IMG/VR virus record: IMGVR_UViG_3300009425_003618
Span: 1-64,000 of that record
DNA from: a virus
Length of the DNA stretch: 64,000 nucleotides
Strand: one strand, 5' to 3'
Made by a program: the position numbers and the translations under genes. Shown piece after piece: positions 17,301 to 51,014 of the stretch; within the stretch, counting starts at the first letter, position 1; each line of letters begins with the position of its first letter. The notes under the pieces are model-generated. The model made no database searches and was not told the origin of the DNA. It worked only from the letters and a program-made list of their open reading frames with translations.

Positions 17301-19153
17301 CTTTACACAGGTATTACCAAACATGTGGGGAAAGCGAGAAAAAGAAAGAGATAAACCTGAGTTTTATTGCTCCTGGCCTGAGGCATGGAGCCGCTGGAAC
17401 TAACTACTTTTGGGGTGGTTTCCCAAGCAGCACTTACGTAAAAAGGTACGCAAAAGTTGGCCCTTACGCATATGAATGGAGGGTAAGCACACACAACAGA
17501 GATAGAAATGGGAATGGGATATCGGAGTCCTTCTATTCTACGAAATATGACCGCAACATGTATCTTTATGATCCTCCCGCCATTTACGGTTTATGGGCGA
17601 GGCAAACGGACCATCTCAAAACTTCGCCAAAGATTGATACGTTAAGGAAACTAAGAAGAAGAGCTCAGTGGTCTCCATGCCAAGGTGAGGTTAACGCAAA
17701 AAGCGGGCAGCCAAGTTGCGCCGGTCACACAAAGAACGGATACCGAGCAATCCCCTGGCAACTTGCGGGATTGAGGTTCGGTCCTCCTGGAGCGTCTAAG
17801 AACGGCGGGTGTGGGACTATGCGACTTGGTTGTGTTGACACCCCCCATTTGCCTCGTCGCCGCTCGTATAGTTCCAATAGTAATGAACCATGCAATTGGT
17901 ACAAGTACGCCATAAAATTGGGTCTCGACCATGGCAGTCATTATGGTTGCAACGAGAAACAATTATTAGAAGGAGTATGTTTCGATCCCTGCCTAAGTAT
18001 GAAGTATAATTATGGGTTTTTCCCTGGTGGCAAGCTATTAACCATTAATAATTATGTAAAATATAAAACCAGTAGACATGACGCTGAACCCCCTAAGGGC
18101 GTTGCAAATGCCGCTGGCGGAGTGCTCCCGAACGCTGGCCTCGCGGCTAGTAAGATACCCTCAAAGTCATCCCTCAACGCAAATAAATCACCACAAGCGC
18201 AAAAAGCACAAGCCGACTCTGGGGTTGCGGGCGCAGTGGTGAAAGCAGCAAACCCTTCGAGATTTTTAACTCAGTTAACTAATGATGTTCATGATGAAGA
18301 AATCGCTATAACCAAAAGCAAATCAATGAAGTTTGTCAGAATGTTGAGGGGGCCATGGGCTACCCCTTACAGAAGGATAAAAGCTGAAATAGCTGCGGCG
18401 GGACTAGGTTTACCCCCTGGAGGCAGGAAGACAAATTCGGATGTATTCAACTCGATTGCTACACCAGCGATCATAGGCCAGACTCATGAAGAACTCACTC
18501 TTGGTGGTGCTTTTTACAGTCAACCCGACAAGGTTACCTCCGCCCAAAGATACTCGGACACATCTGTTTCACCTTGTAACGCTTATGGCGCAGACCATTG
18601 CAACTATTTGACTCCGACAATTCATATAGGAATGGATACACAGTTCTCATTTATGACTAGCGATATCATGGCAAACGCAGCGTACTTGGGTGGGCAATAC
18701 TCTCTTTCAAAAGAAATTACAGTTGGGGGAGAAATGTCTAAACAATTCGCGGCAATGGCGAAGTGGCTGGCGTTTTTTCTAATTCCGGGCTCCGGGTCAA
18801 TCAAAGGTCTGGCTGCGGCGGGTAGGGTGGGCAGTCTCTCACACCTGAAACCACACGCCATTTCCGTATTAGTCAAGAAAGCTCTCTCCAACGCCAAAGT
18901 CGCGGGGCAGGTTGCGACGATGAGTGGCTTGATGGAAGCTTACATCGACGATAATTGTGGCGGGGATGATAGTGGATTTATGATGTCAACTTTCGCAACA
19001 GCTGTTTCATGGTTTCTGCCCAATATGCCCCCGACCCAATTGGAAGGGGAAATTATGCAAAGAAGTAGTAGCAGTATGCCAGGGCAGCTTACTAATGCGC
19101 TAATGGAGCAACTGGACGGGATGGCCACCAATGGTCAGATTCTGATTATCTAG
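11309..19153 (+). CDS. Giant 2614-residue virion-like protein
   Basis: This single uninterrupted frame of 7.8 kb has a good GGAAAAAGG ribosome-binding stretch before its ATG. I recognise no named domain. It is rich in Trp, Tyr, Gly, His and Asn over most of its length. Cys-x-TW modules lie at about residues 15-52 and 691-716. An Ala/Ser/Lys low-complexity linker spans roughly 2260-2316, and an Ala/Gly-rich hydrophobic segment lies near 2484-2510. No signal peptide is visible. Length, composition and pairing with the 1909-residue gene suggest a fibre, baseplate or ejected virion protein. A tape-measure role is less likely because long helical repeats are absent. Confidence 0.6.
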   Translation: MRIPPFYIRQDHSDQSCSDTTTREGSNSPLYDSEVKCKNVGATWGYYPPYGWEDYHKQSHIPDEEGRDFYYTGIHRIGHDQGTHLPMNYKGEWVATQGTTTSEAYHKGDLVFVKPAAAGSLHPETIFYYCLIDNSDLSAPPSNNWEKQNLKSYLYEGHEGVNSAAEPGAYHAYDTKESKISHRYEEGGNATAREAEMGVTNVKIGQGGNSHFETWYNQENRANQFYVADAGHFYTYETCHGTRPVWLQGFSGNNNFYNATYPAGYYAPPHGEHATLTLVGSNPGEETINALTSTDFELEDFMAGDCCPSLDTKQELEMYGIRTVFPKNGAMVTFDQNRGDEHGIHAPYEECPPDLPPLVFFERELFGYHPGSIMAPGAGTFYNDNPFPNGLDIDGWFHPHVYETKRCWAPGGLIYNGYKLKGGYPELTYPVMGSNERKLDAGICKAREAETSQLLGYNFEGVQGGMGTGPGAAANDSASFATYDPFIYWHFIFRYNHDSLWDDTQNTLTNKVVNFGEGAGTIEDHLWEYRQCPSTPDFLPWSADCPIHACPSHYFDIPYYAAIGKFGFYGARFFNTCSVPAGVGDNEVQDPHAEFNYYSALKASADGKSFNDPPITLKGRIDRTDQVDFVGRINNECYKVTYEKTSTDDLPVDLVLGTTRPTWVDSVKTIDMVYYVYYWNWIGNLKQVPGAGVCSPYDSYTTQATCEANNGTWTKSSVDLGSIIVPMTACEDCANGGANAVDEAKKQVRDAWAALFGVTWESLQGLLASASGGGVGTINHISDTFCDDSNPNCLPFLKYGSVAFNPHNILDSLGACDDLLRTHAVRMGADNIGATKGQYSTFDQRVDLVRDFSAGVQECDTYSEPSVTAGTCGEDHYDFLLEIASNEQRINEFFVGNHGFFLWANYEHIINSPEYKNYLIGDSVGDPAEVHFKRCLFRLYSDFNQLLLSLPNFFDGNDSPVIYYEKAINGLYGNQALDYSRQGLFNDMLFSNNRYRQFLRELEWHDQTNLWNLAESIPGHVNQIEAWDRILKTYGHYIAQNGGAVNQGWYKEAIEAKESRILTRYVENKLRGKAIDLYPTNQISFSTDSADRYITGKYWGNSQWGHSTVGHYAGSSTTYPDPNNPPDGKLTNARFDPLPGGYGPQRGDPSEPNPNVTRTYFHGTYAAKSSVTGHFEDITNAKNGGGEHFYAGLFVDWSCGGDMPSTSYTAGGLAVAAEGKGIPKKPWVTKGHADVGKLNQGFSCFSPLFIQQPLNLSCKLGQRPTFMAHAVDYHTIPDDKINKGYPEIDYWTNNLKLTNSRGELKYPIKYQWYRMLRRQPDNNDALPPNGAYFNPPNPSMNETFDEWFYANEPVLQKASVTGEWSCMEGVSGVGTEDCTMFHPQVSYTHDMLEGDGKYEDKKEEGRQYREDHWTKLVDYKGELHNMGSVKKQGWQRIWKSWAYIQGSINAFGRNNGTDPYYGVKPNVDQVHQTVVAAEGAGPLDNRHAIPCFDIEAGADAYNKMMIDEYGINSNYGDEEYVYFCVASGRFGFRRSEYASLNIEDWLKLDVSIRNGAPMTIPMDTISFDYTRIDQDHAVFPGLPGENQISEIGDQALLNASRDKNIHKNCPNTESSYVTPYNMVFLKMGWGAPLSDHNRWQGNGLEKSVIGIPPFAGTMRDQNQAVEQEVMEVMNMSNNCRSFAFVGREGFRGATRTYRPPTQHNHQGTKAERAGWFEYGMLYSFGGVLSQAAGNALYSQPQLPVCRDYFMPKGCTAQGFRAGFPIADGGTKEQFTRTVTDICGQTTTVSFTESLSARMGNVDASEENALGGGDAAALAEGAASNAFHYTAGDRAIIITSLMAGVPTTRINHQGELYPWNENDTAYWYDTHHTIGHHGKGVSWQFSNNLGIIKRFGKCAPMPEGGDETYDWSAGNIVRTAETAAGFTSIISQGTAAHNKLRWLPKDTSDYFFWAWGNSREMMRGWRAAKQLIGPSTLAGIQCGFRQEGCGRYMLYFVEALHRYYQTCGESEKKKEINLSFIAPGLRHGAAGTNYFWGGFPSSTYVKRYAKVGPYAYEWRVSTHNRDRNGNGISESFYSTKYDRNMYLYDPPAIYGLWARQTDHLKTSPKIDTLRKLRRRAQWSPCQGEVNAKSGQPSCAGHTKNGYRAIPWQLAGLRFGPPGASKNGGCGTMRLGCVDTPHLPRRRSYSSNSNEPCNWYKYAIKLGLDHGSHYGCNEKQLLEGVCFDPCLSMKYNYGFFPGGKLLTINNYVKYKTSRHDAEPPKGVANAAGGVLPNAGLAASKIPSKSSLNANKSPQAQKAQADSGVAGAVVKAANPSRFLTQLTNDVHDEEIAITKSKSMKFVRMLRGPWATPYRRIKAEIAAAGLGLPPGGRKTNSDVFNSIATPAIIGQTHEELTLGGAFYSQPDKVTSAQRYSDTSVSPCNAYGADHCNYLTPTIHIGMDTQFSFMTSDIMANAAYLGGQYSLSKEITVGGEMSKQFAAMAKWLAFFLIPGSGSIKGLAAAGRVGSLSHLKPHAISVLVKKALSNAKVAGQVATMSGLMEAYIDDNCGGDDSGFMMSTFATAVSWFLPNMPPTQLEGEIMQRSSSSMPGQLTNALMEQLDGMATNGQILII
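13381..13458 (+). repeat. Cys-x-TW micro-module (protein-level repeat)
   Basis: The encoded stretch reads C-S-P-Y-D-S-Y-T-T-Q-A-T-C-E and then N-G-T-W-T. Related modules lie at about 5019-5150 (two copies), 11350-11463 (a divergent form) and 20502-20615 (a loose form). They share a Cys pair, a Tyr-x-Thr/Ser stretch and a terminal Gly-x-Thr-Trp. They are similar as protein motifs rather than exact DNA repeats. Confidence 0.6.
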
Positions 19154-19176
19154 TCATTTTTTCTGCTTTGATTGTC

Positions 19177-19205
19177 TTGTAGTTGGATGCGTTTTGTTAT
19201 AGTAT
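19177..19205 (+). promoter_or_regulatory. Possible promoter and palindrome before the 1909-residue gene
   Basis: The 60-bp gap holds TTGTAG, 17 nt, TAGTAT. The overlapping palindrome GTTATA-G-TATAAC spans 19196-19208 and leaves only about eight bases to the ATG. The -35 box is a weak match, so the palindrome could instead be an operator. Confidence 0.35.
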
Positions 19206-19213
19206 AACAGGTA

Positions 19214-22200
19214 ATGAGTACACCCGCATACGACAGAATGCAATACCTGCTTAAGCAAACGCAGGAAGGAGGTGCTCTTGGGCCTAACTCCTCGGCTTAC
19301 AGTGCTCTTGCACAGGAGGGGTATGGGGGCGCGGAACAGTCAAGCAACCTTGAAGATGACCCAACATCCTTGAAAAGAATCTTGGGCTACGCAGCTTCCC
19401 TCACCCTTGGTCACTACGCGACTACTCTTGGCAAGAAAATGGAGATGAATGAGGTTCATCACAAAGCATGGGTAGCTTTCGCCGCCGTCTATCACGCGGT
19501 GGCAAGAGCCACCGACACCCAAGTTATTAAGGAGGCGATGTGGCTGGCAAGCATGAAACCTTCCAACTCATGGGACAATCTGGTGAACTCCGAGGGACTT
19601 AGCTCGAGCTCGGCTTTCGGGCTACGGGTTTCAGCGGTGGAGGGGTTTATCGAAGGCGGTCACGGAGAAGAGCTTGAAAGAGCCTTTGCCGTAGCTCTTG
19701 TCTCTATTTTCGCAGCACGGTTCGCTGTTGGTGAAAATTTAAAACCTATAGGATGTATGGCGGCGTATGGGGCTGTCTTTAATTGGTTTAATTTGCGGAG
19801 GAGATATCTTTTGCCTGACAACGACGAAAACGCCCCTCTGATGGGTCTCGGGACGGGTGGCCTAGAAAGGTTAATGTCGGATAACTATGCCCCCGTATTT
19901 CGAGAGATCAATATATTAAGCCCCCAGACCGCAAAGGCGAGATCGACAATGTTTGGTTTTGAAGATTTGACCGAGGTGTTCCAGTCGCCAGTTGATAATC
20001 AATTAGAAAAAGATGCAGAACTCCAAGTATACAAGATTGAAGGGGAAATCCATTACGACGAATGGTGGTGGTACAATACCCCCAGTTGCGAAGATGTAGA
20101 AGTACCTATAGAAAATCCACAGGGGAAAGTCACGGGGTATATGAACATTGGCCCAATTTCATTTCCATGTGTTGACGAGTCAAAAAACGTGACCCCTATT
20201 ACGGGCACAGCCTTTAAAAGAACTTTTGTGGAAGCTCCTCCAGTCTCTGGGACTTACGACAAGGTAAACTCGGAATACATACAAGGAAAAACCAAATATT
20301 TTTACCCAACGCAGGATTACGGGGGTGACTTAACTTACGGGTTAGAGGATTACTACGAGCCAGCTGATTGTAGATGGATAACAACCATGGGCCGAGTTGG
20401 GTCTGCTGCAAATCACGTCATAACAGACTCTTCTAATTATGAACCGTATTATTTCATAAATAATCTGGAAAACGGTGAAGGGTCTCCCTTCCCAGGTTGG
20501 CATTGTAAGCTCAGTTTGGACGAAGGTTGGTGTCGGTCAAATGATCTTCATCTTATCGAAGGGGACTGTACTAGTCATGGACATGAGTGGGTCAAACCTG
20601 CGGCTTCCTGTATTCACCCAGCCCCTCCTCCACCGTCAGCCTTCCCGAATGAGGGTCCAGTAAGGGACATGAGCTTAAGACACAGTTTACGGATGGAAGA
20701 CCATGACGCTTCTGTAAATTATTGGGACGATTTGAGATCATGGGAATGGACCGGATTCGTAATGGCTCCATTACAATTTACAGACCTGAGGTATAACACC
20801 CTTTATAAAGATCACTACTCCAACCCCGTGCTAAACGGCCCAAACTTAGGTAGAAGGGCGTTCTCTTTCAAAAATGCTTCCACCGCCCAAGTCGTTGATG
20901 GAACATGCGGGCCTCCTCAACAATTTTCAAACCCTAACGATTCAAACCAATCGTACAACTTCAATGGCGGGCCGATGGTCTACGCCCAAGTGTGGACGCA
21001 GAACAGAACCAAGCGACAACAAACAAAGATTGGCTTATTCGTTGGAAATCCTTACAGGTATTGGGAAGACCCTTATGGAACTTTTGATCTCCACAGGACT
21101 GGCGGTTGGAATTTCCCGATAATAAAAGAAGCATATGGGCAAGGCTGGGCCGAGACGGTTGGTGGTTTCGTTAATATAGATTTTCATGGCACTAAAATTT
21201 CACCCAACTATAACGAGGGGGGAGACAGGCAATACAAATACCAAGGAGAAGAAGAGTCCTTTTTCGTTGGAACGGGGATAGACCCTCAAACAAACGAAAG
21301 ATACTCTGGCTTATGGAAAGGGGGGGGCGAATACGGGCCTTCATCTACGCCTTGGTTGCCCTATGACCCTGATCCCCCCGACCCATTTCATTACAATCAA
21401 GAACTGATTACTCCTCATAAGTTCTTTGGTATGGGGGATGGGTGTGTAGGCATACCAACGGAAACAGAGTGGTCGTTGAATGCGGGACAAAGATATTCTT
21501 ACCATAGCATAAACCTAACGGGGATAACTCACCCGTATCTAAAAACAATTACAGGTGTCATAGCTGAAGAGGTTAATAAGTATACAAATGGCGTAGAAGA
21601 ATTCTTTAAACCAGGCATACTGGGGCAGCATGGAGACAATTACTGGGATGATTTTGTCACTGGATGGATAAATACGGGAGACTACGCGGGGGAATCCGTC
21701 CACTGCTTGCACCTAAGAACTGGATACTCAACAACCCCAGGCTCACCCAAAACGAAGGTATACCATTGGTTGGGTACAGGTCAGTTCGATGTCCATTATA
21801 ATTTTCCGTATAAAGGCGTAGATTGCCTAATAAACCACGGACCAATATCTCCATACCCAAACATGAGTAAATGTTGCGATCTCTTTGCCCCGCCTTTTAA
21901 CGGGTGGACGGGCAATGCGATTTGTTACCCGACTACGACAACGACGATTGACCCATCAGCGACTACCACAACTTGCGATCCTTACGAGATGTGCACGACC
22001 ACGACACTGGACCCGATGGCTCAGTACGAATGCGATGACGGAATAAAGGTAACTTGCCCAGACGGCCTAGCACCAACTGAGTTCTACAATTCGGAAATCG
22101 GGCTCTGTGATTGGGATATGTGCACAATGGCCGGTTGCTATACCAAAGCCGATTGGTGGGATGACGTTATCATGTGGGACTCTGGCATCTTCCCTCACGA

Positions 22201-24943
22201 AAGAGATTGGGCGGAGCGAAAGCACAGACAAAGGAATGAAAATCCACCCAGGTATTGGTACGGACCCTACGCAAGCACCCATTTCACGTTTTTATATCCC
22301 AACGCTCAAGCTGTGTTGGACATCCACTACCCTTCGGGGTTACGGGATGAATTCCCCGTGACGGGTTTCCCAGAAAAAATAACATTTGACGTAGAAATAG
22401 AAGAATATCTAGTAAAAGACGTGGTTTCTGGTGGGTATATAGATGAAGATGGGGCAATCGTTTGGGATGAAATTTTAAAAAGCGAAGAAGGCGGACCTGC
22501 GCCATCTTTTACAACTGGAAACTCGGGACAGCACGGTATCCCGTGGAATTTGGTTGATGAAAATTACGTACCGCTAATTGAAAGATCATCAGACTGGCCG
22601 CCTCTACCAGGGGAAACCACCCCACCGTACACGAAGGTTCCTGGGATAGGCGAATGGCACGATCAGGTAGTAAACTACGCCCTTGCGAATGGGAGAAATT
22701 TTTCAACCTACGATCACCCGACTCGATTTGATAGGGGTAACCAATACGCTACTGGAGTAACTTACGGGTACGGAACGACGACCTCTAATGCTTCCTATGG
22801 TCAATTGCATTTTCCAGTTGGGGGATTTAATCTTTACTCGAAATATTCGTTCTCACAGGAAACCACTTACGCTAGACCCACATTTACTCTTAACACCCTT
22901 GAGAATAATACGACTAGCTTGTTGAAGTCTTTGAGTCTCGGCAATGAAGTATTCTATGACTGTGGGGGCAACGGGCTTAAGATATTCGATCCAAACCTGC
23001 CTCTGGACGAGTGGGGCGGTGGCGATCAGATGAGGCATGCTTATGATTACTATGACCCTATCTACTTCATGCCCATGCAAAGTAATCTGAGGGAAACGGG
23101 CGTATATAATCAGGGCGGTCTTGCTCGGGAAAATGAGCCCTTCACGGGAACACTGGTTCACCCAAAGCAAATATACGGTGACCGTTGGATGGGTTTAAGA
23201 CCACAGTCAGTGTTTAGTAAATTTACTTACGAACTTGAGTCAGGCTATAATGACGCGAGCGTCAACTCTTACGTTGCGGGAAGCCCAGGTGACCTAATCA
23301 CAGCTGAGACTGGCCGACACGGGACTCACGAAATCCTTTACAACAGCGAATATGATCCGACTTGTGCAGAGATAATTGGCGGATGGGATGAAACTGCGGG
23401 TATGGGGGGAGGCATGTGGTGCGGAAATATCTCCGAGTGCTATGATACGTGTACCGGGGTTTCAGGTCCACCACGTCCCCACGAAGTAAGGCTTACGGAA
23501 CATCCCTGTCTGAATTTCGAATTAGGCGATGAGGATGGCTCTTTCATCACGAGCAAGGATAATAGGGTTTGGCTGTTTAATTTAGACGCATCAGGAGTAG
23601 ACATGCACGTCAGAGCACCCGATTGCCTTTCGGGGTATCTCTTTAACGTTGGGGATAATCCTGGGGGCGGTGCATTGATGGGCGGCACGATGTCTACTCC
23701 AGGAGACCTCCTTGATGACCTGGGATTTGGTGGCGGCTCCCTCAACTCCCATGCGGCTACCGCAGCCCTAGGGTTCCGCATAACAGGAACAAGCATGTTA
23801 TGGAGCCTTGAGGAGGGAGCAGCCGTTCCAACGGAAGGAAATAAACAGATAGACTTCTTCAAGCCTGGGTGGGTGCAGGACCATAAAGTGGTTAGTTATA
23901 ATGGGGCTATTTACGAAAAAGAGGGGATACTTTACGAAAAACCATCCGACGAAGGGTGGAAAATGGGAGAAGATGCCCAAGGAAATGTCACGGGATACGA
24001 AACTCTACTCCGGTACGGGACTAGAATGGCAGTTAGTGCTGGTTCATCTGGACCTCAAAACAAATTAAGGGTATCTGGCTGGAAAGAAACATCTAGGGTC
24101 GCGATCAAGCTTTCGAATTTTGAAATCGCAAATTACGGGGCGTTCCCTCACGATTCTTATTTTTCGATGGAGGAAAGTGGTAACGCCATGGTAACGGGCC
24201 GGTTGGATCATGTATGCGCGGCTGAAGCGTCCATTTATTCAGAAGGTATAGTGCTGGAAGACAAAAGTGATGACCCGTTGAGGGATGTATTGGACTACCC
24301 TCATTACGCCTCGCCGACAATCAAGAGGCCGGGGGTTGAGCTTCCTTCGGGGAACTATATATATGGCGAGTATACCCCTGACGAAGAAGTAGTACCAATG
24401 AAACATATTTCCTTGGCTCCATCTAGAATGATGGTAAGAAAGCTTGAATGGTTCATTATGGGCACAGGCCAAGAGAATTACTTTGAGTTATTTAAGGGAG
24501 AACCTCACTTCTACAACAGGTACATCTGGCCCACTCGAAGCGACATGTCTCAGTGGAACGGGGGAACGTTATCGTGGGAAAGTTCACCCCCGGTAGATGC
24601 CGTAACGTACCCGCTTACTGAACTGATGATCTCCGCTCAAGCAGGTCAACCGACCCCCGACAAGGCTCAAAGCGAATTTATCCAAAGAAACTATGCATTA
24701 ACGCAACATATCGCTTTCTATGACGGTGTTGTGCTAGACCCGACGATAAATAAGGAGTGGCGGGTAGATTTGGACATTAAGTTCTCCGTCCAGCCGAAGA
24801 CTTCCTACTTTGTTGCCCAGGGTACATCCGTATTGGATGTTATGAACGAGATTGTCCCTGCCGCCAAACAAACGCTATGGGAAGATGGTTCTGACTCTAG
24901 CGAAGGGGGCGAAGAAGGGGTGGTCGGGATAATTAGTGATTAA
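19214..24943 (+). CDS. Giant 1909-residue virion-like protein with Thr-rich linker
   Basis: This is a single 5.7-kb frame. The first 250 residues are Ala-rich and helical with moderately hydrophobic stretches; the rest is Gly/Tyr/Trp/Asn-rich and looks beta-structured. A Thr-rich, mucin-like linker (runs of T-T-T-T) with surrounding cysteines spans about residues 900-985, and a Cys/His cluster lies at about 430-470. No known domain was recognised. Its stop codon overlaps that of the convergent polymerase gene by four bases (TTAA). Together with the 2614-residue neighbour it probably builds a host-contact structure of the virion; this is inference from size, composition and position. Confidence 0.6.
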   Translation: MSTPAYDRMQYLLKQTQEGGALGPNSSAYSALAQEGYGGAEQSSNLEDDPTSLKRILGYAASLTLGHYATTLGKKMEMNEVHHKAWVAFAAVYHAVARATDTQVIKEAMWLASMKPSNSWDNLVNSEGLSSSSAFGLRVSAVEGFIEGGHGEELERAFAVALVSIFAARFAVGENLKPIGCMAAYGAVFNWFNLRRRYLLPDNDENAPLMGLGTGGLERLMSDNYAPVFREINILSPQTAKARSTMFGFEDLTEVFQSPVDNQLEKDAELQVYKIEGEIHYDEWWWYNTPSCEDVEVPIENPQGKVTGYMNIGPISFPCVDESKNVTPITGTAFKRTFVEAPPVSGTYDKVNSEYIQGKTKYFYPTQDYGGDLTYGLEDYYEPADCRWITTMGRVGSAANHVITDSSNYEPYYFINNLENGEGSPFPGWHCKLSLDEGWCRSNDLHLIEGDCTSHGHEWVKPAASCIHPAPPPPSAFPNEGPVRDMSLRHSLRMEDHDASVNYWDDLRSWEWTGFVMAPLQFTDLRYNTLYKDHYSNPVLNGPNLGRRAFSFKNASTAQVVDGTCGPPQQFSNPNDSNQSYNFNGGPMVYAQVWTQNRTKRQQTKIGLFVGNPYRYWEDPYGTFDLHRTGGWNFPIIKEAYGQGWAETVGGFVNIDFHGTKISPNYNEGGDRQYKYQGEEESFFVGTGIDPQTNERYSGLWKGGGEYGPSSTPWLPYDPDPPDPFHYNQELITPHKFFGMGDGCVGIPTETEWSLNAGQRYSYHSINLTGITHPYLKTITGVIAEEVNKYTNGVEEFFKPGILGQHGDNYWDDFVTGWINTGDYAGESVHCLHLRTGYSTTPGSPKTKVYHWLGTGQFDVHYNFPYKGVDCLINHGPISPYPNMSKCCDLFAPPFNGWTGNAICYPTTTTTIDPSATTTTCDPYEMCTTTTLDPMAQYECDDGIKVTCPDGLAPTEFYNSEIGLCDWDMCTMAGCYTKADWWDDVIMWDSGIFPHERDWAERKHRQRNENPPRYWYGPYASTHFTFLYPNAQAVLDIHYPSGLRDEFPVTGFPEKITFDVEIEEYLVKDVVSGGYIDEDGAIVWDEILKSEEGGPAPSFTTGNSGQHGIPWNLVDENYVPLIERSSDWPPLPGETTPPYTKVPGIGEWHDQVVNYALANGRNFSTYDHPTRFDRGNQYATGVTYGYGTTTSNASYGQLHFPVGGFNLYSKYSFSQETTYARPTFTLNTLENNTTSLLKSLSLGNEVFYDCGGNGLKIFDPNLPLDEWGGGDQMRHAYDYYDPIYFMPMQSNLRETGVYNQGGLARENEPFTGTLVHPKQIYGDRWMGLRPQSVFSKFTYELESGYNDASVNSYVAGSPGDLITAETGRHGTHEILYNSEYDPTCAEIIGGWDETAGMGGGMWCGNISECYDTCTGVSGPPRPHEVRLTEHPCLNFELGDEDGSFITSKDNRVWLFNLDASGVDMHVRAPDCLSGYLFNVGDNPGGGALMGGTMSTPGDLLDDLGFGGGSLNSHAATAALGFRITGTSMLWSLEEGAAVPTEGNKQIDFFKPGWVQDHKVVSYNGAIYEKEGILYEKPSDEGWKMGEDAQGNVTGYETLLRYGTRMAVSAGSSGPQNKLRVSGWKETSRVAIKLSNFEIANYGAFPHDSYFSMEESGNAMVTGRLDHVCAAEASIYSEGIVLEDKSDDPLRDVLDYPHYASPTIKRPGVELPSGNYIYGEYTPDEEVVPMKHISLAPSRMMVRKLEWFIMGTGQENYFELFKGEPHFYNRYIWPTRSDMSQWNGGTLSWESSPPVDAVTYPLTELMISAQAGQPTPDKAQSEFIQRNYALTQHIAFYDGVVLDPTINKEWRVDLDIKFSVQPKTSYFVAQGTSVLDVMNEIVPAAKQTLWEDGSDSSEGGEEGVVGIISD

Positions 24944-27549
24944 CTTGATTTTTTCTTTGCTGATTTCATGTCAGAATACTTTGTGTAGATTTTGTTTGTC
25001 TGCACAATAATTCTGTCAGCAAATATGGTATTATCATCCTGCTTCTGTCCCACCACTACTACAATATTTTTATCTTCTGGAAGAACTCCGTTATTCTCAT
25101 CTTCGCACATCTCAACCTTATCATTGAAAAGCATGACCTTGACTCTCCCTGTTTCGTCGTCTACCTCCGTGATAAGGTAGCGGTTCCCATTCTTTGATGT
25201 CCTTAGTGCTGGCTTGCTGACCACAGTGCCTATGAAGGTAACCTTGCGACCCTTTCTTTGCTCGTTTACCTCACCCAGCCCCATTAAATCGGGGCTTTTT
25301 TCTATGAAAATATCTTTTAGGGCTTTGCCGTATGTATATCCCAGTAAGTGTTTTTCATAATACCAATTCGCGAAGCTTTCTGACTTGCTGTTTTGGTCGT
25401 AAATAGCTTTATATGGAAGAGACTTTTTCTTAATGGTCTCGTGACGAGATTCTTTAACGCACGGCTTCACCACCCCTTTTTGTGTGACCTCGGTTTTAGA
25501 TAGTAGGGTTTTAAATATTTGAACCAAGTCGTCCCTGTGTTGTCCAGCCAGCCCCAAACATAATCTCTTCTCCCTCTCTGTTAAGACGTTCCAAAGTTGC
25601 GCCTCGTACGCTACCTTTGATCGAGATTGCTTAAACCCCTGCAAAGCTCCCGAGTGAATCAGAGCGCATAAGATGCTTACCGTAAGTCCAGCCTCCTTGG
25701 CTGCTTCAAATACTTCTAGTTTCGTCGAGCTATCTTTTTTGAAGTCATTTAATTTCTGAATAGACTTATCGGAAATCCCTTTTATAGATATAAGGCCAAA
25801 CCTAATGTCTTCCCCTTCCATGGAGAAATCCATTTTAGATTTGATGATGTTCGGCGGCAGCAAGGTTATGTTAAAGCTCGCCATCTCCTTTTGGATTTTT
25901 GAAATTTCGCTTATAGAGTCTCCCTCGTGGCGGGTCATCTTAAGTAAACTAAGAAAAAATTGCTGTGGATACTTGAACTTTAGATAGATCGTCGAGGCTG
26001 ACAAGGCAGCATAAGAAATTGAGTGCGACTTATTGAAGGAGTAATTCGCCGAGTCTTCGAGAATCTTCCAGAGAATGTCTCCGATGTCGGGGTCGAGATT
26101 TTGTTCTTTAACCCTGTCCTTGATTTTCTTTTTCCATTTTTTTACTTCCGCTCTTTTCTTTTTACCGACAATACGACGCAACAGTTCAGCCTCGTCGAGA
26201 GTGAAGCCGATCTTGTTCGCCATCTGCATCATCTGCTCCTGATACAAGCAGACACCACCTGTTGATGCCAAAATGTCATCAAAGAATGGGTGTATGGATT
26301 CTTTCACCCCATTGTTTGAGTAGTTAGCATACTGGTCAACAAAAGCTAACGCACCTGGGCGAGCCAAAGCCAGCACAGCACTTAGCTCTTCTAGATTTTT
26401 AGGCATTACCTTTCGGCAAACCTTGTAATTAGTGTCAGCTTCAATCTGAAATAAACCGTGAGGGGTTTTTAGGTCTTGAAGGTTCCGATAGATTTCCTTT
26501 TCATTGAAATCAACATCTTCAACTTCGATACCAAGGCTTTTGCATACGTCATCTATGACTGATACAGACCTTAGGCCCAGTAAGTCCAACTTGACATTGG
26601 TCAAGGAGGTCCAATTCATGTCGTAAGAAGAGATAGATGCCTTCTCTGAGGAAAGTTCTGTTGGGCAGCTATCGTCCATATCTTCAAATGACAAGGACAA
26701 GGCGGAAGCGTGGACCCCTTTGTTTTTAATTAAGCCCCTCAGTTTTAGGGCGATATCATAAGACCGTCTATTCTCATCGCACCATTCTTGTAGCTCGCTT
26801 ACCTCGTCATAAGCTTCTGAAATGTCCATAACCTTACCAAAAACCTTTGGTATCATAGATGAGACAAGGTTCATCTCCTGCTCCGTTTTACTCCCTACGA
26901 TTTTACCACACTCTTTTACACAGAGTTTTCCGCTAAGAGTGTTGAATGTAATGATTTTGGATGTCCGACCTTGAAATTTGTCTTCCAGATACTTAATTAC
27001 GTTTTGTCGGTTGTAGTAACAAATATCCAAATCAACGTCGCACATTAGGGAGCCATCAAGATAAGTTATACCCTTCACCACCTTCTTTTTTGCTCGAATC
27101 TTCGAGATAAACCTCTCGAAATAAAGACCGTACTTAATCGGGTCAACCTTGGTCACCCCAATCAGGTAAAGTATAAGGCTCCCCGCTGCACTGCCACGGC
27201 CAAGGCCCGTTGGTATATCGTTTCGTTCGCAGTAATTAATTACATCCCAAACTAAAAGTATATAATCAACAAAACCTAAATCTTTTAAAGTAGATAACTC
27301 ATACTTAGCCCTATCAACATACTCATTAAAATTAGGGTCTTTTTTATTTATTTTTAAATTTTTAAATCCAGTGTTAGCTAATGAACGCAAGAAATCGTAA
27401 TTGCTAATGTCTTCACTGACACCAATCTCTCTTTTGTACTTATCCTCTATCTCGAAAGTAGGTAAACGTACCCCGTGCAAGGGGAGGTCTATGCCTTTAA
27501 AGTGAGACTTAAAATCTATATCTCTATTTCCCATTTTAACTTGTTCCAT
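24940..27549 (-). CDS. dnaE: DNA polymerase III alpha subunit, palm-to-OB part (split gene)
   Basis: This 869-residue product carries the polymerase core of a C-family (bacterial PolIII) enzyme. Seen in order are P-T-G-L-G-R-G-S-A-A-G-S at about 113-124, V-D-P-I-K-Y-G-L-Y-F-E-R-F at about 135-147, the metal-binding D-V-D-L-D at 171-175, a K-L-D-L-L-G-L motif near 330 with the third catalytic Asp, the Y-Q-E-Q-M-M fingers region, and an OB fold near 775-845. It lacks the PHP domain, which is encoded two genes upstream. The two products together give about 1127 residues, the normal length of DnaE. The start could also be the Met at residue 6. It must assemble with the separate PHP product or act without it. 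Confidence 0.93.
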   Translation of the reverse strand: MEQVKMGNRDIDFKSHFKGIDLPLHGVRLPTFEIEDKYKREIGVSEDISNYDFLRSLANTGFKNLKINKKDPNFNEYVDRAKYELSTLKDLGFVDYILLVWDVINYCERNDIPTGLGRGSAAGSLILYLIGVTKVDPIKYGLYFERFISKIRAKKKVVKGITYLDGSLMCDVDLDICYYNRQNVIKYLEDKFQGRTSKIITFNTLSGKLCVKECGKIVGSKTEQEMNLVSSMIPKVFGKVMDISEAYDEVSELQEWCDENRRSYDIALKLRGLIKNKGVHASALSLSFEDMDDSCPTELSSEKASISSYDMNWTSLTNVKLDLLGLRSVSVIDDVCKSLGIEVEDVDFNEKEIYRNLQDLKTPHGLFQIEADTNYKVCRKVMPKNLEELSAVLALARPGALAFVDQYANYSNNGVKESIHPFFDDILASTGGVCLYQEQMMQMANKIGFTLDEAELLRRIVGKKKRAEVKKWKKKIKDRVKEQNLDPDIGDILWKILEDSANYSFNKSHSISYAALSASTIYLKFKYPQQFFLSLLKMTRHEGDSISEISKIQKEMASFNITLLPPNIIKSKMDFSMEGEDIRFGLISIKGISDKSIQKLNDFKKDSSTKLEVFEAAKEAGLTVSILCALIHSGALQGFKQSRSKVAYEAQLWNVLTEREKRLCLGLAGQHRDDLVQIFKTLLSKTEVTQKGVVKPCVKESRHETIKKKSLPYKAIYDQNSKSESFANWYYEKHLLGYTYGKALKDIFIEKSPDLMGLGEVNEQRKGRKVTFIGTVVSKPALRTSKNGNRYLITEVDDETGRVKVMLFNDKVEMCEDENNGVLPEDKNIVVVVGQKQDDNTIFADRIIVQTNKIYTKYSDMKSAKKKSS

Positions 27550-28157
27550 ACTTTTAGGTTTAGCTCTAAATCAACAATAGCATTATGCAGACTATCGTAG
27601 TCGTGGTCGAGCTTGTACCCCTTCGCTAAGGCCATCAGGTTCGTTCTAACGCCCTTTTTACGTGTATTGGCCATTCGGTACTGGTACTCCAGTAAAGTGC
27701 CCTCACCCTCATTGTAGGGCATCCCCATCTTTAACCCTCTGGCTAGGGCATTTGTATCTAAAATCTTAGGCATTATACTCTTATAATCGCAGTTATTAAG
27801 CCTGTAATAATCTCGGAGTAAGTAAAGGTCGAAGTGGAGCATGTTATGTGCAATGATCCAATCAGCTTTATCAAGCCAATCCTTGATGGTCGGGAAGGCT
27901 TGTTCAGGGGGGATACCCTTCTTCTCCATCGTTCTTTCGCTGTATTTGGTGATCCTAGCTGCCGCCTCACCGATTTTAAGGTCTGTATCCCACTTAATGT
28001 AAAAGTCTTTCTCGGCAGTTTTCTTGCCGTCCACAGCCTTAATCATGGCAATCTGCCAAGGGAGATTGAAGGAACTACTTAAGCACAAATTAAAGGTCTC
28101 GCAATCTATGAGAACATAAGTCTTAGACTTATCGAATCGGAGGAGGTGTTCACGCAT
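27516..28157 (-). CDS. dnaQ: DnaQ-type 3'-5' proofreading exonuclease (DEDDh)
   Basis: From the ATG at 28157 the protein has 213 residues. It shows all DEDDh motifs: L-I-D-C-E-T (D18, E20), H-N-M-L-H-F-D (D110) and L-H-N-A-I-V-D (H191, D196). It would remove misincorporated 3' nucleotides for the phage polymerase. The gene sits exactly between the two halves of the polymerase gene, in a different reading frame. It overlaps the PHP gene by eight bases and the core gene by 34. An upstream in-frame start at 28202 would lengthen the first overlap to 53 bases; 28157 is preferred because a GGGGG-rich purine stretch precedes it. Confidence 0.92.
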   Translation of the reverse strand: MREHLLRFDKSKTYVLIDCETFNLCLSSSFNLPWQIAMIKAVDGKKTAEKDFYIKWDTDLKIGEAAARITKYSERTMEKKGIPPEQAFPTIKDWLDKADWIIAHNMLHFDLYLLRDYYRLNNCDYKSIMPKILDTNALARGLKMGMPYNEGEGTLLEYQYRMANTRKKGVRTNLMALAKGYKLDHDYDSLHNAIVDLELNLKVWNKLKWEIEI

Positions 28158-28926
28158 GGGAACCCCCTGTTTCCCCCATCCAGCTTTCGAAGCAGAATTC
28201 ATCGCTGCACATGTGGTCTATATTCGGTTTCTCTAGGCTGGACCTATTGTTAATGCATCTAAAGGTAAGGTAAGCTAAAAAATCATCCCTGTTCTTGTAG
28301 AAAATGCTTTTAATTTTTTGTACGGAATGACCAGAGGACTCGATATAATTTAAAACCCTGTCTCTAATGAGGTCATCGAATGGGACATCGTTGTCTTCTA
28401 GCAGAAACACGGGGTCGCAAAAGTCGAACTCGGGTATGCATGTTGCACCCTCTAGGGAATTTCGATGCAAGAAAGAATCATAAAATGGCACACACAACAT
28501 CAGGTCATCATTATTCCAAAATGTTTTTAGGGTTTTGAAGTCCATGTTTGGCACGTAGTAGAACCCCTCTTTGGCAGCGAAGCTCCAAATTTTTATCAAT
28601 CTTTTATAACCCTCCGTATTCTTGGCAAAAATGATATACTTACAACGAGACTTAAGGGCTTCCTCGTCTTTTTCTCCAATATCACACAAGAAGCTCAACC
28701 TAAGTCCAAAGTTAAGTTTTACTTTGTTGTCTTTGCTGTTTTGGTAAGCCTCCAAAAAGCCGCCGAAAGAATCCTCCACAAGGAAAAGCTCGTCTATATT
28801 ATTTTCTAGAAGGATATCGAAAATAGAGGCGGGCGCGTCTGAGGCTTGCCCACCAGGAGCACCCAAGGTCAGTATAGACCTACCCAAAGAGTAATGAGAC
28901 TTGAATACTGGAATTGTTGCGGTCAC
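28150..28926 (-). CDS. dnaE: DNA polymerase III alpha subunit, PHP domain (split gene)
   Basis: This product of about 258 residues matches the N-terminal PHP region of DnaE. It has Y-S-L near the start, G-F-Y-Y-V-P-N-M-D in the middle (DnaE has G-F-Y-Y-K-P-R-I-D), and near the end an R-C-I-N-N-R-S-S-L segment followed by F-C-F-E-S, the end of the PHP/thumb linker. It ends where DnaE would continue into the palm. The expected first metal-binding His (H-S-D-Y-S in DnaE) reads K-S-H-Y-S here, so the PHP metal site is probably degenerate. GTG at 28926 is chosen because a promoter covers the upstream alternative TTG at 28965 and places the transcript start next to this GTG. Confidence 0.85.
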   Translation of the reverse strand: MTATIPVFKSHYSLGRSILTLGAPGGQASDAPASIFDILLENNIDELFLVEDSFGGFLEAYQNSKDNKVKLNFGLRLSFLCDIGEKDEEALKSRCKYIIFAKNTEGYKRLIKIWSFAAKEGFYYVPNMDFKTLKTFWNNDDLMLCVPFYDSFLHRNSLEGATCIPEFDFCDPVFLLEDNDVPFDDLIRDRVLNYIESSGHSVQKIKSIFYKNRDDFLAYLTFRCINNRSSLEKPNIDHMCSDEFCFESWMGETGGSHA

Positions 28927-28933: not shown

Positions 28934-28961
28934 AGTATACCATATACTCGTTTTTTGTCAA
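28934..28961 (-). promoter_or_regulatory. Consensus promoter of the split polymerase genes, leaderless
   Basis: On the minus strand it reads TTGACA, 16 nt, TATACT with a TG extended -10. The -10 box lies in the palindrome AGTATA-TGG-TATACT, a possible repressor site. The predicted start of transcription, near 28927, abuts the GTG at 28926. The -35 box overlaps the stop of the upstream nuclease gene. Confidence 0.85.
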
Positions 28962-29941
28962 GCAAATTTTGGACAGCCCTTATAGGTCATCTTAACTAAC
29001 TTCTCTCCCTTTTTCGGTTTCAAGTCTTCTTGATTCAGGCTGGTTTTCCTGACCTTATCCTTCGGGTCTTTTATCGCGTAGTAGACTCGACCGAACTTGT
29101 ACGGACAGGCCCACATTTCAGTCCCGTCTTTTTTGAGGTGACCCTCGTACTTAGCAAAGCCGCAGTTGAGACAACCACCCCACCCGCCATCAGATGGTTT
29201 TGGTTTGTCGGCTGCAAAATTGGAAACCGCAGAATCTTCATTGTAGTTTATGAGCTTCTTGTAAAATTCTTCAAGGTAGGCTTCAAACCCCTTGAGGGCA
29301 TCATCGCTAAATTCTAATTTTTGTAAGGTAGCTTTCGGGAAACGCAAGAAAACGAATTTGACTATGGGTTTGAGTTTTGGCCAAAGTTTTTTTGCCGCCA
29401 AGCTATACATCATGGCTTGGACATTTGAATCTAGATCATCGCCTTTGAATTTTTTCTTGCTGGTTTTATAGTCGTGGATTTCAACTATCTTTTCTTTTTT
29501 AAAGACAGCTATCTTGTCCATTAGGCCATAAACTCTATAGTCGTAATCCTCGCCCGTGATATCGAAATTAAATTCTGGCTCTAGGAGCTCGGAGCATCCA
29601 TCAACGTAGAAATCCTCATTAAGACCAACGAGAATCATCTTGTTCATTAGGAGATATTGGTCTTCGTTCAGTCCGTACTTTTTAATTCCATCGAGCATAT
29701 GCTTCTCGGCTAGTGTAGATGCCTCAAAGGTTTTGTTCGCGACTATTAGATCGTAATGTTCTTTGTTCTCTGGAAGTTGGAGTATTTCAAAAAGCTCGTG
29801 ACATATGCTACCCATCGCTAAGGCATCACTGGGTGGTTGGGGAATTTTGAGGTGATAGTTACACCAATAAGCCCAAGAGCAAGACTCCATGGACTTGATC
29901 CGTGACGCGGATAAATAATCTCCTTTGGGTTTATTACGCAT
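28958..29941 (-). CDS. PD-(D/E)XK nuclease, Cas4/RecB-like with four-Cys cluster
   Basis: The 327-residue protein reads Y-L-S-A-S-R-I-K-S-M-E-S-C near the N-terminus. It then has an active site with G-L-M-D-K-I and I-H-D-Y-K-T-S and a downstream Q-A-M-M-Y-S-L-A helix. These are the Asp, Asp-x-Lys and Gln motifs of RecB/Cas4-family nucleases. Cysteines near the N-terminus (C16 and C22 region) and at the C-terminus (C-x-x-C, W-A-C-P-Y, G-C-P-K-F) could hold an iron-sulfur cluster, as in Cas4 and AddB. It probably processes DNA ends in recombination or replication. It overlaps the primase gene by eight bases and is the last gene of the operon read from 34188 before a new promoter. Confidence 0.85.
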   Translation of the reverse strand: MRNKPKGDYLSASRIKSMESCSWAYWCNYHLKIPQPPSDALAMGSICHELFEILQLPENKEHYDLIVANKTFEASTLAEKHMLDGIKKYGLNEDQYLLMNKMILVGLNEDFYVDGCSELLEPEFNFDITGEDYDYRVYGLMDKIAVFKKEKIVEIHDYKTSKKKFKGDDLDSNVQAMMYSLAAKKLWPKLKPIVKFVFLRFPKATLQKLEFSDDALKGFEAYLEEFYKKLINYNEDSAVSNFAADKPKPSDGGWGGCLNCGFAKYEGHLKKDGTEMWACPYKFGRVYYAIKDPKDKVRKTSLNQEDLKPKKGEKLVKMTYKGCPKFA

Positions 29942-30866
29942 AGTTAAAAAGGGAAGAGTGCCACTGTCTGATTTCGGCCTCAGTCATGTCACCGAAATCA
30001 TTTTTACTAGGTAACGCTACTTGAATTTGGCTAGGGTCGAAATGGAGATATAATTTTTGAGAGGCTTCTTTGGCCGCCCTGTTGCCAGCTCCGTTTACTG
30101 TGTCGTCATTGTTAAATGAAATAAAAATTTTCTTTACGTCTAGCTTAATTAAGAGGGTCGTTATCGACTTACTTACGGTAAGGCCAAAAGTAACAATCGT
30201 GTTTTCGACCCCAGCGTCCCACAGAGCGAGCATATCTCCAATGCTTTCGACAAGGATTACTTCTTTTTTAGATTGTATTTGTTTTAGGTTGTACTTAACG
30301 GGAAAGCACCAATTAGATACTGACCCTATGTGTTTCCATTTCGCGATTTTGAAATCTTCAGGTATTTTGTTCACGTATCTACCGCTAAATCCGACTATCT
30401 CATCTCTGGAATTAAAAATAGGAAAGACATATCGATTTTTCATCTGGCCTTCTGATGCCACGCCCCCATTGAAGGTCTCCGTGGCTTCAATTGAAACGCC
30501 TCTCGACTCCCAGTAAGAATGGTCTTTACTTAGCTTAAGTAGTAGCTCCTTCGGGTATTTTTTGACAGAATCTACTTTCGGTTTTGGTCGGTTGCTGGTA
30601 TGGGGCGAACCGTCCGGTAGCCTAGACTTAATCCATTCTTTTGTTTCTGTTATATCTTCTTGGCTTAACGAAATTCGTACAAGTTCTTCAAATTTTCCGC
30701 CACGTCTTTCTTTGTGGTCGTACCAAACGCCAGAATCTTTATCAATAGAAAGGACATCGGGGCTGTCTGAGTCGCGGTAAAGGGGTCTTGCCCTGAAGCT
30801 GTCGCCTCTATCAAGCAGTTCATAGCCGATTTCTACCAGAATTTCTTCTATTTTTTCACTTATCAT
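29934..30866 (-). CDS. DnaG-like primase with Toprim domain, no zinc finger
   Basis: The 310-residue protein has a short N-terminal domain with W-Y-D-H-K-E-R-R-G-G, where DnaG/phage primases carry a zinc-ribbon fold, but without the Cys/His ligands. A primase-like central part follows (V-F-P-I-F-N-S, F-S-G-R-Y), and then a Toprim domain with V-E-S-I-G-D and F-N-N-D-D ... G-N-R-A-A. It would lay RNA primers for the phage fork beside the DnaB helicase, whose gene overlaps it by four bases (ATGA-type coupling). It is much shorter than bacterial DnaG and lacks the C-terminal helicase-binding domain. Confidence 0.85.
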   Translation of the reverse strand: MISEKIEEILVEIGYELLDRGDSFRARPLYRDSDSPDVLSIDKDSGVWYDHKERRGGKFEELVRISLSQEDITETKEWIKSRLPDGSPHTSNRPKPKVDSVKKYPKELLLKLSKDHSYWESRGVSIEATETFNGGVASEGQMKNRYVFPIFNSRDEIVGFSGRYVNKIPEDFKIAKWKHIGSVSNWCFPVKYNLKQIQSKKEVILVESIGDMLALWDAGVENTIVTFGLTVSKSITTLLIKLDVKKIFISFNNDDTVNGAGNRAAKEASQKLYLHFDPSQIQVALPSKNDFGDMTEAEIRQWHSSLFNYA

Positions 30867-32353
30867 AGTAGCTCCCCATCGTTGGCGTTCCTGTCTTCTG
30901 AGCTTAGTTGCATCCTCTCTTCGTCTGCTATGTCGTGAAGGGTTCCTCTTTCTTCAACGTTGAAGTTCTCAATTTCAAGGTTGATGTAATTGTTGTAAAA
31001 TTTTTCGTTACCATTCGGGTCTCTTCTTCTAACTAAATCTTGATGACCCATCGCGTGTCGCCCCTGGTATCTTGCTTTTAGGTTAACGAGCATGTGAGTC
31101 CCCCTTTCTTCCCCGTCCCACTGGATTTCTTCTCTAGTTTTTTGGGCTAAGAAAAATGTAAAATCTGAAAACCATTGAACGCGATCAGACGAAGCGATTA
31201 CAGAAGAGTCAATATTATCTCCAAGCTTCCTTCCTTCCCCTCCTCGGTTAGATTGCATGGCTATAACCACGGGAACTTTAAGTTCTATGGCAAGGCGTTT
31301 GAGCTTCTTGACTTTTTCACCCATGATCTGCCACTCAGCCCAGTTATTCGATGTCTTGTCGCTGCCTATCTCAAGAAAATCAAAAGCTATAACACAAGGC
31401 TTGTCTCTGCCAATCTCGGATAGCTTCCATTTCCTTGCGATTGAGCAAATTTCATCAATATTTTTATCCCCTACGTGGTAGTGGTGAACTAGTTTTTTTT
31501 CTAGATACTTTTTGACCTTTTCAAAACCCTCGTTGGTTTTCTTGTAGAGCTCCTTGTTCTTGCTCCATTGACCAGTTTCAAGATACCACATGGGGACTTT
31601 ACTAATGGAAGCAAACATCCGCATCTCCACATCCAGTGTCGGCATCTCTGTGTCTAGCACGAGAGTCTTGGTCCCGTTTAGTTCTCCAGTTTTTCTGGCT
31701 AGGTCACTAAGGAAGGTAGTTTTGCCATTCCCAGCGCGAGCGACTATTGTGTAGAGGCACTTCGGCCTCAAGCCCCCGAACAATCTGTTAAAATTTTCAT
31801 AAGGAATCTGAAGCCCCACCTCTTGTGTCGGCTCGTTCCCCCTTAGCTCAATCTCTTCGATGATACCCTCTAGCAGGGGTCTTGGTTTTGTGTCTAGGGA
31901 ATAAAATTCGTTTACATTCTCAGCATATAGCTCGTCACATTCAGCTATCACTGATGAAATGGGCTTATCTAGGGTTTTACCAAGGTGGCTGATAATTTTA
32001 CCAGCATTCCTTTCCACATCTCTTCTTATTTTTTTGTCCTTTAGATCACACGCAGCTTGCACCGTGGCTTTAGGGGATATTTGGGTAAACGAAATAGAAT
32101 CTATGTAATCAAAGATGTTGATGTCGTCTTTAAAGGAAATCCCGAGGTTCTTAATCTTCTGGGCGACGGTAACGTTTGCGATTTCCCCACCTTCAAAAAC
32201 GGTGCTCTTAATGCACGAGAAAATTGTAGAATGAACGTCTGAATAAAAATCTTTTTCCGAAATAATTACATCAATATCTGCAAAAATCCGAGGGTTATTG
32301 ATTAAGCCCCCCAACACATGCTTCTCTGTCTGGTACGAGTATAGTTTTGTCAT
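30863..32353 (-). CDS. dnaB: DnaB-type replicative helicase
   Basis: The 496-residue protein has the DnaB layout. An N-terminal helical domain (E-K-H-V-L-G-G-L-I at residue 10) is followed by a RecA-like motor. The Walker A motif A-R-A-G-N-G-K-T-T lies at about 205-213, Walker B near F-D-F-L-E-I-G, and the DNA-binding H4 region reads A-M-Q-S-N-R-G-G-E-G with D-S-S-V-I-A-S-S-D. It unwinds the fork 5' to 3' as a hexamer. It is coupled to the primase gene downstream and overlaps the endonuclease gene upstream by four bases, so helicase and primase are made together. Confidence 0.95.
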   Translation of the reverse strand: MTKLYSYQTEKHVLGGLINNPRIFADIDVIISEKDFYSDVHSTIFSCIKSTVFEGGEIANVTVAQKIKNLGISFKDDINIFDYIDSISFTQISPKATVQAACDLKDKKIRRDVERNAGKIISHLGKTLDKPISSVIAECDELYAENVNEFYSLDTKPRPLLEGIIEEIELRGNEPTQEVGLQIPYENFNRLFGGLRPKCLYTIVARAGNGKTTFLSDLARKTGELNGTKTLVLDTEMPTLDVEMRMFASISKVPMWYLETGQWSKNKELYKKTNEGFEKVKKYLEKKLVHHYHVGDKNIDEICSIARKWKLSEIGRDKPCVIAFDFLEIGSDKTSNNWAEWQIMGEKVKKLKRLAIELKVPVVIAMQSNRGGEGRKLGDNIDSSVIASSDRVQWFSDFTFFLAQKTREEIQWDGEERGTHMLVNLKARYQGRHAMGHQDLVRRRDPNGNEKFYNNYINLEIENFNVEERGTLHDIADEERMQLSSEDRNANDGELL

Positions 32354-32766
32354 ATTTTAATTCCGCATTTTGCCTCTATCAACTGATAACTAAGCTGGGG
32401 CACTTCATCTTGCTCTATTTCTATTACTTCGAAGTCATTCGACTCTAGCCAGTCGAGTTTTTTACAGTCCCTCTTTATGGACTGTAGGAATTTCTGCCTA
32501 GAGCCGCCATGGAAGAACTTGTTAAAGGTCGAATGCTGCTTCCCGTTCACTTCAACCGCGATCTTCTTGGTTGCGTTAAGTATATCCACCTTCAGTCTTG
32601 TTCCGTACACTGGGAACTCTTCGTAGACAATGTGATTCTTCCAGTACTCTTTTAGAAATTGTTTTGTTGCAAATTGTATCTTTGATCTCGATTTTTTATC
32701 CCAATCAATGAGGTACTTACTTACGTTTCGGCTCATTAGTCTACCTGTCACGCTGTGTAGCCTCAT
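32350..32766 (-). CDS. Small PD-(D/E)XK endonuclease
   Basis: This is a 138-residue basic protein. The core reads V-Y-G-T-R-L-K-V-D-I, then I-A-V-E-V-N-G-K-Q-H, then R-D-C-K-K-L-D-W-L and V-I-E-I-E. This Asp ... Glu-x-x-x-Lys-x-His pattern fits the very-short-patch-repair/DUF559-like branch of PD-(D/E)XK nucleases. It may resolve or nick recombination intermediates made by the adjacent RecA, but the substrate cannot be read from sequence. Start and stop overlap both neighbours by four bases, so it is translated as part of the recombination operon. Confidence 0.75.
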   Translation of the reverse strand: MRLHSVTGRLMSRNVSKYLIDWDKKSRSKIQFATKQFLKEYWKNHIVYEEFPVYGTRLKVDILNATKKIAVEVNGKQHSTFNKFFHGGSRQKFLQSIKRDCKKLDWLESNDFEVIEIEQDEVPQLSYQLIEAKCGIKI

Positions 32767-48023: not shown

Positions 48024-48025
48024 AA

Positions 48026-50380: not shown

Positions 50381-50491
50381 GTGTAATATAGAGTACAGAA
50401 GGTAGATGAAAGAAACAGGTCTTAATACGAGACAACTTTATCTGAGTAAGAAACTGGATTTTATACTTCTTATTTTTTAATTGATGCCATT

Positions 50492-50519
50492 TTGACGCAT
50501 TTAAGTATCACTTTAAAAG
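50492..50519 (+). promoter_or_regulatory. Promoter-like site with inverted repeat before hsp20
   Basis: TTGACG, 16 nt, TAAAAG lies in the 230-bp gap after nrdA. The GACGC and GCGTC arms of an inverted repeat (50494 and 50519) flank the spacer and -10, a possible operator. The leader to the Hsp20 ATG would be about 85 nt. The rest of the gap (50381-50611) shows a TGTAAT box at 50382 and nothing else clear. Confidence 0.5.
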
Positions 50520-50611
50520 CGTCATAAAGACACTCCCCTATGCTTTTCTTTAAAAAACCCCAAGAAAACCTAGCTTTTTAAGTGGCATAGTTCTTGCGGA
50601 AGTAAGTGACT

Positions 50612-51003: not shown

Positions 51004-51014
51004 TGCGGTCCGTT

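Follow-up and report, generated by a model that had tools for sequence, protein, structure and literature searches.

The genes at positions 24940–28926 of a 64,000-nucleotide stretch of the IMG/VR virus record IMGVR_UViG_3300009425_003618 (the stretch is hereafter the window; the source record comprises 68,074 bases) encode a DnaE-type DNA polymerase III alpha subunit in two pieces, with an exonuclease gene between them. All three genes lie on the minus strand. The first (PHP, 28150–28926) encodes a free-standing PHP domain of DnaE of 258 amino acids (aa), counted from a GTG at 28926, the mechanically called open reading frame (ORF) starting from a TTG at 28965 and giving 271 aa. It is followed by a gene (EXO, 27516–28157) for a DEDDh 3′–5′ exonuclease of 213 aa, and by a gene (PALM, 24940–27549) for a PHP-less DnaE polymerase of 869 aa with palm, thumb, fingers, HhH, and OB regions. 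The length of EXO is counted from the ATG at residue 16 of a frame that would give 228 aa from its first ATG; tblastn matches to EXO in many relatives start at this same residue, and with this start EXO overlaps PHP by 8 bases (ATGCGTGA, 28150–28157, gap value −8). The end of EXO overlaps the start of PALM by 34 bases (27516–27549), or by 19 bases (gap value −19) if PALM begins at the alternative ATG at 27534, yielding 864 aa, with the first start codon of the PALM frame in the close relative L027 corresponding to the latter choice. At both junctions the neighbouring genes overlap in different reading frames. A first-pass annotation made from the sequence alone had described three such frames with the exonuclease in the middle, and their place, strand, and overlaps of 8 and 19 or 34 bases are borne out here.

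Pfam, PHROGs, and NCBIfam are in agreement on the identities of all three proteins. PALM matches the Pfam families DNA_pol3_alpha (4.2e-55), finger (6.1e-33), and HHH_6 (1.9e-13), with the OB match falling under the Pfam cut-off, and residues D171, D173, and D322, which we take to be the three catalytic aspartates of the palm, are invariant in 26/26 aligned rows and aligned with the matching aspartates of Taq DnaE (the aligned rows of all three proteins being hand-picked representatives without internal stops, begun at the tblastn match). The AlphaFold2 (AF2) model of PALM, with a predicted local distance difference test (pLDDT) score of 77.9, shows OB-fold structure matches at residues 754–852, and the domain order palm-thumb-fingers-HhH-OB, with the OB C-terminal, is found in PALM by Pfam together with the structure match to Taq residues 287–1122. 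EXO matches Pfam RNase_T (2.9e-13) and PHROG 192 (DNA polymerase exonuclease subunit, 6.9e-21), with the DEDDh residues D18, E20, D110, H191, and D196 invariant in 28/28 aligned rows; a search with the EXO profile gave no relative of solved structure at E 0.001, and tblastn of EXO against the ‘phages’ collection gave no match at E 1e-5. PALM matched 1319 records of the same collection, with the rows covering more than half of the query all at or below 31.0% identity among the best matches listed (two lists of 60 rows), and one short match among those listed reaching 44.8% identity at 7% coverage.

The PHP protein matches Pfam PHP (1.2e-7) and TIGR00594 (positions 44–242), and its AF2 model (pLDDT 82.8) aligns with the DnaE structures of E. 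coli, Taq, and M. tuberculosis at VIA Z 21–22, spanning DnaE residues 4–249, 5–259, and 8–274 respectively. The PALM model starts at residue 272–276 in most E. coli DnaE rows, and at residues 287 and 301 in the best rows of Taq and M. tuberculosis. In two DnaE rows the alignment begins further upstream (266 for Taq 3e0d_A, 242 for E. coli 4jom), because low-confidence first residues of the model are included. PALM ends near residue 1122 of the 1220-residue Taq chain, and thus lacks the extreme C-terminal region of bacterial DnaE. By both the models and sequence comparison, PHP and PALM are complementary on DnaE, with the PHP-palm linker of fused DnaEs present in neither. Their summed length of 258 + 869 = 1127 aa, compared with 1160 aa for E. 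coli DnaE, agrees with the earlier observation that the two pieces add up to about one DnaE. A DnaE-type alpha subunit is here divided into separate genes where PHP meets palm, and EXO occupies the gap. As in PolC, a polymerase, a PHP domain, and a DEDDh exonuclease belong together here, and the first-pass annotation had termed the arrangement PolC-like. This description is not upheld, and PolC identity is ruled out by the structure alignments: the exonuclease of PolC lies inside the PHP domain of a single chain, with only ~230 residues of the PHP model matched over PolC residues 338–785, whereas EXO has a gene of its own downstream of the complete PHP, and the polymerase is DnaE-type with a C-terminal OB.

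Relatives of the locus were gathered from viral contigs, searched with single sequences and with profiles, from GTDB genome contigs, searched with one profile, and from the ‘phages’ collection, which contributed 14 regions. The 304 loci obtained (230 at an intermediate stage) and the window were merged if they shared an exact 150-mer, giving 205 clusters, although clusters without a common exact 150-mer are possibly still closely related. Copies of the window's own record (L055, L231, and L232) were removed before counting. The 205 clusters consist of 177 with all three genes, 14 that are incomplete, and the 14 from the ‘phages’ collection. Each search contributed at most 80 loci, the best of over 500 relatives per profile query, and the clade therefore extends beyond this sample.

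The order PHP-EXO-PALM, on one strand, is found in 177/177 of the non-redundant viral or metagenome-assembled genome (MAG) clusters with all three genes, and the search for this order in other phages proposed with the first-pass annotation has found it. None of these 177 clusters carries a PHP-polymerase fusion; PHP and polymerase share one frame in 6 of the 205 clusters, all from the ‘phages’ collection, and a fused DnaE with the exonuclease elsewhere, which had been named as an observation that would count against the split, occurs only among distant phage DnaEs outside the lineage (KPP12, Persimmon). Twelve of the 14 incomplete clusters run into contig ends, one, L073, has no PHP within 1.3 kb before EXO, and the last, L146, has its polymerase ~9.3 kb away. 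Identity to the PHP of the window falls as low as 32% among the examined loci. The ten matches from genome contigs lie on MAG contigs whose host labels disagree, and these may be viral contigs that were wrongly binned. Assembly error is ruled out as the cause of the break, which recurs in 177 clusters and in L001 (91% identical to the window, containing only the EXO-PALM junction), and a single continuous frame, the other outcome that had been set against the split, is contradicted by many independent assemblies. A large phage group represented only in metagenomes appears to make its DNA polymerase from three separate proteins.

The distances between the genes bear on whether the products remain separate. 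Of the 177 loci, 70 have an overlap at the PHP-EXO junction, which spans 0–60 bases in 23, 61–300 bases in 5, and more than 300 bases in 79; the corresponding numbers for the EXO-PALM junction are 74, 12, 68, and 22, with one locus without a value. At least one junction has a gap of more than 60 bases in 130/177 loci, with gaps of up to 3.4 kb, and ~9.3 kb in the incomplete cluster L146. The overlaps in the window, in different frames, had led the first-pass annotation to suggest that frameshifting could join the pieces, and these overlaps of 8 and 19 or 34 bases are what speaks for programmed ribosomal frameshifting or read-through into one protein. With a gap of more than 60 bases at one junction or both in 130 of the 177 relatives, and gaps exceeding 300 bases in 79 (PHP-EXO) and 22 (EXO-PALM), joining of this kind is very unlikely. 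Furthermore, other genes lie inside many of the gaps (first 54 loci less duplicates), and EXO and PALM have start codons of their own near the domain start, in 177/177 and 176/177 loci respectively. A Shine-Dalgarno-like motif precedes EXO in 65/177 loci and PALM in 48/177, compared with 86/843 internal control windows.

In cyanobacteria, dnaE is likewise found in two genes, and the halves of the split DnaE are rejoined by splicing. Joining after translation by a split intein could in principle operate here also, as intein-split DnaE sequences of cyanobacteria are noted in PMC3919608, and for phage MIJ3 a PolB is described that is split and has an intein (PMC6892783). Whilst the cyanobacterial gene is cut by an intein, the pieces described here leave no room for one at the PHP end or the PALM start. 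No more than 25 residues follow the last PHP profile match in 175/177 loci (7 residues in the window; the exceptions are L027 with 198 and L186 with 182), and PALM could be extended at its N-terminus by at most 25 residues in 170/177 loci, and by no more than 53 in any (12 in the window). Additionally, no intein family is found among the Pfam matches of the window proteins or of the L027 extension. For want of space, we regard intein-mediated joining as scarcely credible.

The role of these genes as a replicase was assessed in ten long records (140–203 kb, completeness unknown). In 10/10 of these the TIGR00594 matches are these two pieces only, a second, fused DnaE was sought and not found, and PF00476 (PolA) and PF00136 (PolB) are matched in 0/10, with the controls having worked. 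From these results, PHP-EXO-PALM is most likely the replicase of the phage. A terminase match is present in 10/10 of the same records, nine of them over the cut-off. The DnaN-type sliding clamp family PF02767 is matched in 0/10, with a working control, and a clamp search with PF02916 (0/10) was uninformative, the control being silent too.

The PHP protein is conserved, with 31 invariant columns in 26/26 rows (the L027 row being trimmed before its 198-residue extension). The metal-ligand motifs, which we take to be HxH, TDH, GCE, and NDxH, are missing in 9/9 of the split rows compared, in a sequence alignment that is uncertain near the N-terminus, and are kept in several fused phage DnaEs and in the Rhodococcus phage Trina. 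Some of them are also missing in E. coli, an Acinetobacter row, and the Enterococcus phage Efs. Judged by its sequence, the free PHP protein is probably now catalytically dead. Barros et al. (PMC3666897) report that loss of the metal ligands in variant PHP domains correlates with proofreading by a separate exonuclease, and that in E. coli Pol III this domain contributes to both stability and activity; a dead PHP is consistent with both the correlation and the structural role reported there. EXO has no C-terminal tail beyond its core, with at most 5 residues past the last profile match in 177/177 loci and all 28 aligned rows ending together. Since bona fide Pol III epsilon is reported to require a C-terminal tail that binds the alpha subunit (PMC3666897), EXO is epsilon-like in its presumed role only.

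Taken together, the three genes likely encode one DnaE-type (C-family) replicase in three chains, assembled in trans. The PALM protein would carry the polymerase active site, and the PHP protein, as the former N-terminal domain, would bind the polymerase in trans and serve it as a structural scaffold, a role that we infer from the loss of the metal-ligand motifs. EXO would be the proofreader for PALM, and the PHP protein, the polymerase, or both would hold it in much the way that bacterial epsilon is held. The earlier proposal that three peptides form one replicase thus stands in so far as separate peptides arise from a gene-level split, is probable as regards a single replicase, and is, as regards assembly, what we infer from the parts.

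Several observations weigh against this proposal. EXO lacks the tail by which E. coli epsilon binds PHP, and its contact with PHP would therefore have to differ. PHP and EXO lie more than 300 bases apart in 79/177 loci, and the polymerase gene of L146, on the same strand as PHP, is ~9.3 kb away from it, so adjacency is not absolute. A Shine-Dalgarno-like motif precedes PHP in only 8/177 loci, the conserved order may stem in part from a conserved operon and not from a physical complex, and in the ten long records of unknown completeness other polymerases were sought only via PF00476 and PF00136. It is conceivable, though unlikely, that PHP is a relic or has another task, that PALM is self-sufficient, and that EXO serves something else, such as recombination. 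The absence of the PHP ligand motifs and of an epsilon-type tail on EXO would fit such a scenario, as would the ability of other genes to part the three. However, a useless gene would be lost, whereas PHP is kept with its 31 invariant columns, and it is found in the same locus, upstream, in 177/177 clusters.

A family of ORFs of 67–105 aa lies between EXO and PALM in 69/177 loci (for example L006:5793-5996 and L004:5781-5996) and before PHP in L035; it was not found in the window, and is a candidate small replicase subunit. An extension of the three-chain replicase, which we put forward tentatively and hold to be somewhat less probable than its opposite, is that the dead PHP acts as an exchangeable adaptor tying the tail-less EXO to the PHP-less DnaE, such that proofreading could be attached or released independently of polymerisation, this being the normal replicase of the clade, with the 67–105 aa family as an extra small subunit in part of it.

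In E. coli, the DnaE-DnaQ (alpha-epsilon) pair similarly combines a DnaE-type polymerase, a PHP domain with lost ligands, and a separate DEDDh exonuclease. Its alpha subunit is one chain, however, and its epsilon bears a C-terminal PHP-binding tail, whereas the PHP that in DnaE is N-terminal in the same chain is a separate gene in 177/177 of the clusters here. Trina (NC_042040) has a dnaE likewise cut between PHP and palm into two adjacent genes, gp101 and gp102, both annotated as DnaE alpha, but with no exonuclease gene between them, and with a PHP that keeps the ligand motifs and the linker segment, placing its break further downstream. In the Pseudomonas phage KPP12 (Pbunavirus; gp55-gp54), an annotated 3′–5′ exonuclease gene lies directly upstream of the DNA polymerase gene, as here, although the polymerase is encoded by one 3108-base gene, whose length would accommodate a fused DnaE. 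In families A and B, phage polymerases in pieces have been described before (PMC10580990, PMC6892783), among them the split PolA of the marine OM43 phages MEP401/402 (PMC10580990), and a homing endonuclease gene that splits a phage nucleotide reductase gene into two working peptides is mentioned by Barth et al. (PMC10448857). In the reductase and in the PolA of MEP401/402 too, an important phage enzyme is in pieces parted by another gene, but the enzymes are others, and the cut described here falls between domains and holds an exonuclease gene. No description of the three-gene arrangement, with an exonuclease at the break throughout a clade, was found among the titles and starts of abstracts listed in literature searches. 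What would be new is the three-gene order as the rule in a clade, split phage polymerases and a two-gene dnaE (Trina) being known already. As a separate observation, the DnaE of the Alicyclobacillus phage KKP_3916, the Rossellomorea phage phiT1, and two fecal phage contigs (the group L057, L058, L061, and L062) is divided among several open frames, with the breaks at other positions.

In a tree of 39 rows, a branch with support of 100/99 separates the 24 split rows from all others, and Trina joins the fused Persimmon, also with 100/99. The pairing of Trina with a fused DnaE suggests an independent event, and hence that the PHP/palm split arose at least twice. Owing to very long branches (GeobE3, KPP12, and Pleione), several rows of odd composition, three rows under half filled, and a root placed for drawing only, the tree indicates neither the nearest fused DnaE nor the direction of change. 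The junctions are sites where endonuclease and other genes still come and go. Inserts at the PHP-EXO junction of some relatives include an HNH-like gene (L051) and a T5orf172 gene (L018), with none in the window. Other junction inserts include ORFs of ~150–190 aa that are PD-(D/E)XK-like by eye only, a cupin gene (L016), and larger genes; most of those scanned gave no informative family match. The PHP proteins of L027 (L027:3985-5400) and L186 show a further variation, in-frame C-terminal extensions of 198 and 182 aa respectively, that of L027 matching PHROG 18407 (unknown function). We would trace the arrangement to an ancient break in the linker between PHP and palm of a once fused dnaE, perhaps via gene insertion; such an insertion is plausible, though the window itself has no insert there. 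L021:1530-6013 has large non-replication genes in both junctions, glycosyltransferase- and carbamoyltransferase-like by eye. In L224 (9623-12607), L155, L158, and L184, PALM is itself in two open frames, from further splitting or sequence error.

The three genes are preceded on the minus strand by a series of replication genes (28958–33839), namely a RecA/UvsX-like gene, a small DUF559/HNH-like gene with weak matches only, a DnaB-like helicase, a primase, and a Cas4/RecB-like exonuclease, followed directly by PHP-EXO-PALM. Among the 68 relatives with at least 4 kb upstream, the Cas4-like gene is present in 65, the primase in 63, the DnaB gene in 57, and the RecA-like gene in 38, the counts of the farther genes being limited by locus length. 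The small gene between the RecA-like and DnaB-like genes (32350-32766) has weak DUF559, HNH, and homing-endonuclease matches, and since a counterpart occupies the same place in 49/68 of these relatives, the enzyme may be resident and not mobile. Two plus-strand ORFs of great length (2614 and 1909 aa) occupy positions 11309-24943, directly past the polymerase gene. Positions 47061-52443 contain genes for the small and large subunits of ribonucleotide reductase, followed by six tRNA genes.

The three-gene locus adds a replicase type that is present in hundreds of viral contigs, and which will be overlooked or wrongly labelled if annotation relies on one full-length DnaE model. In these phages PHP is now a separate gene that is still kept with its metal motifs gone, and the structural role of this domain thereby becomes directly testable.

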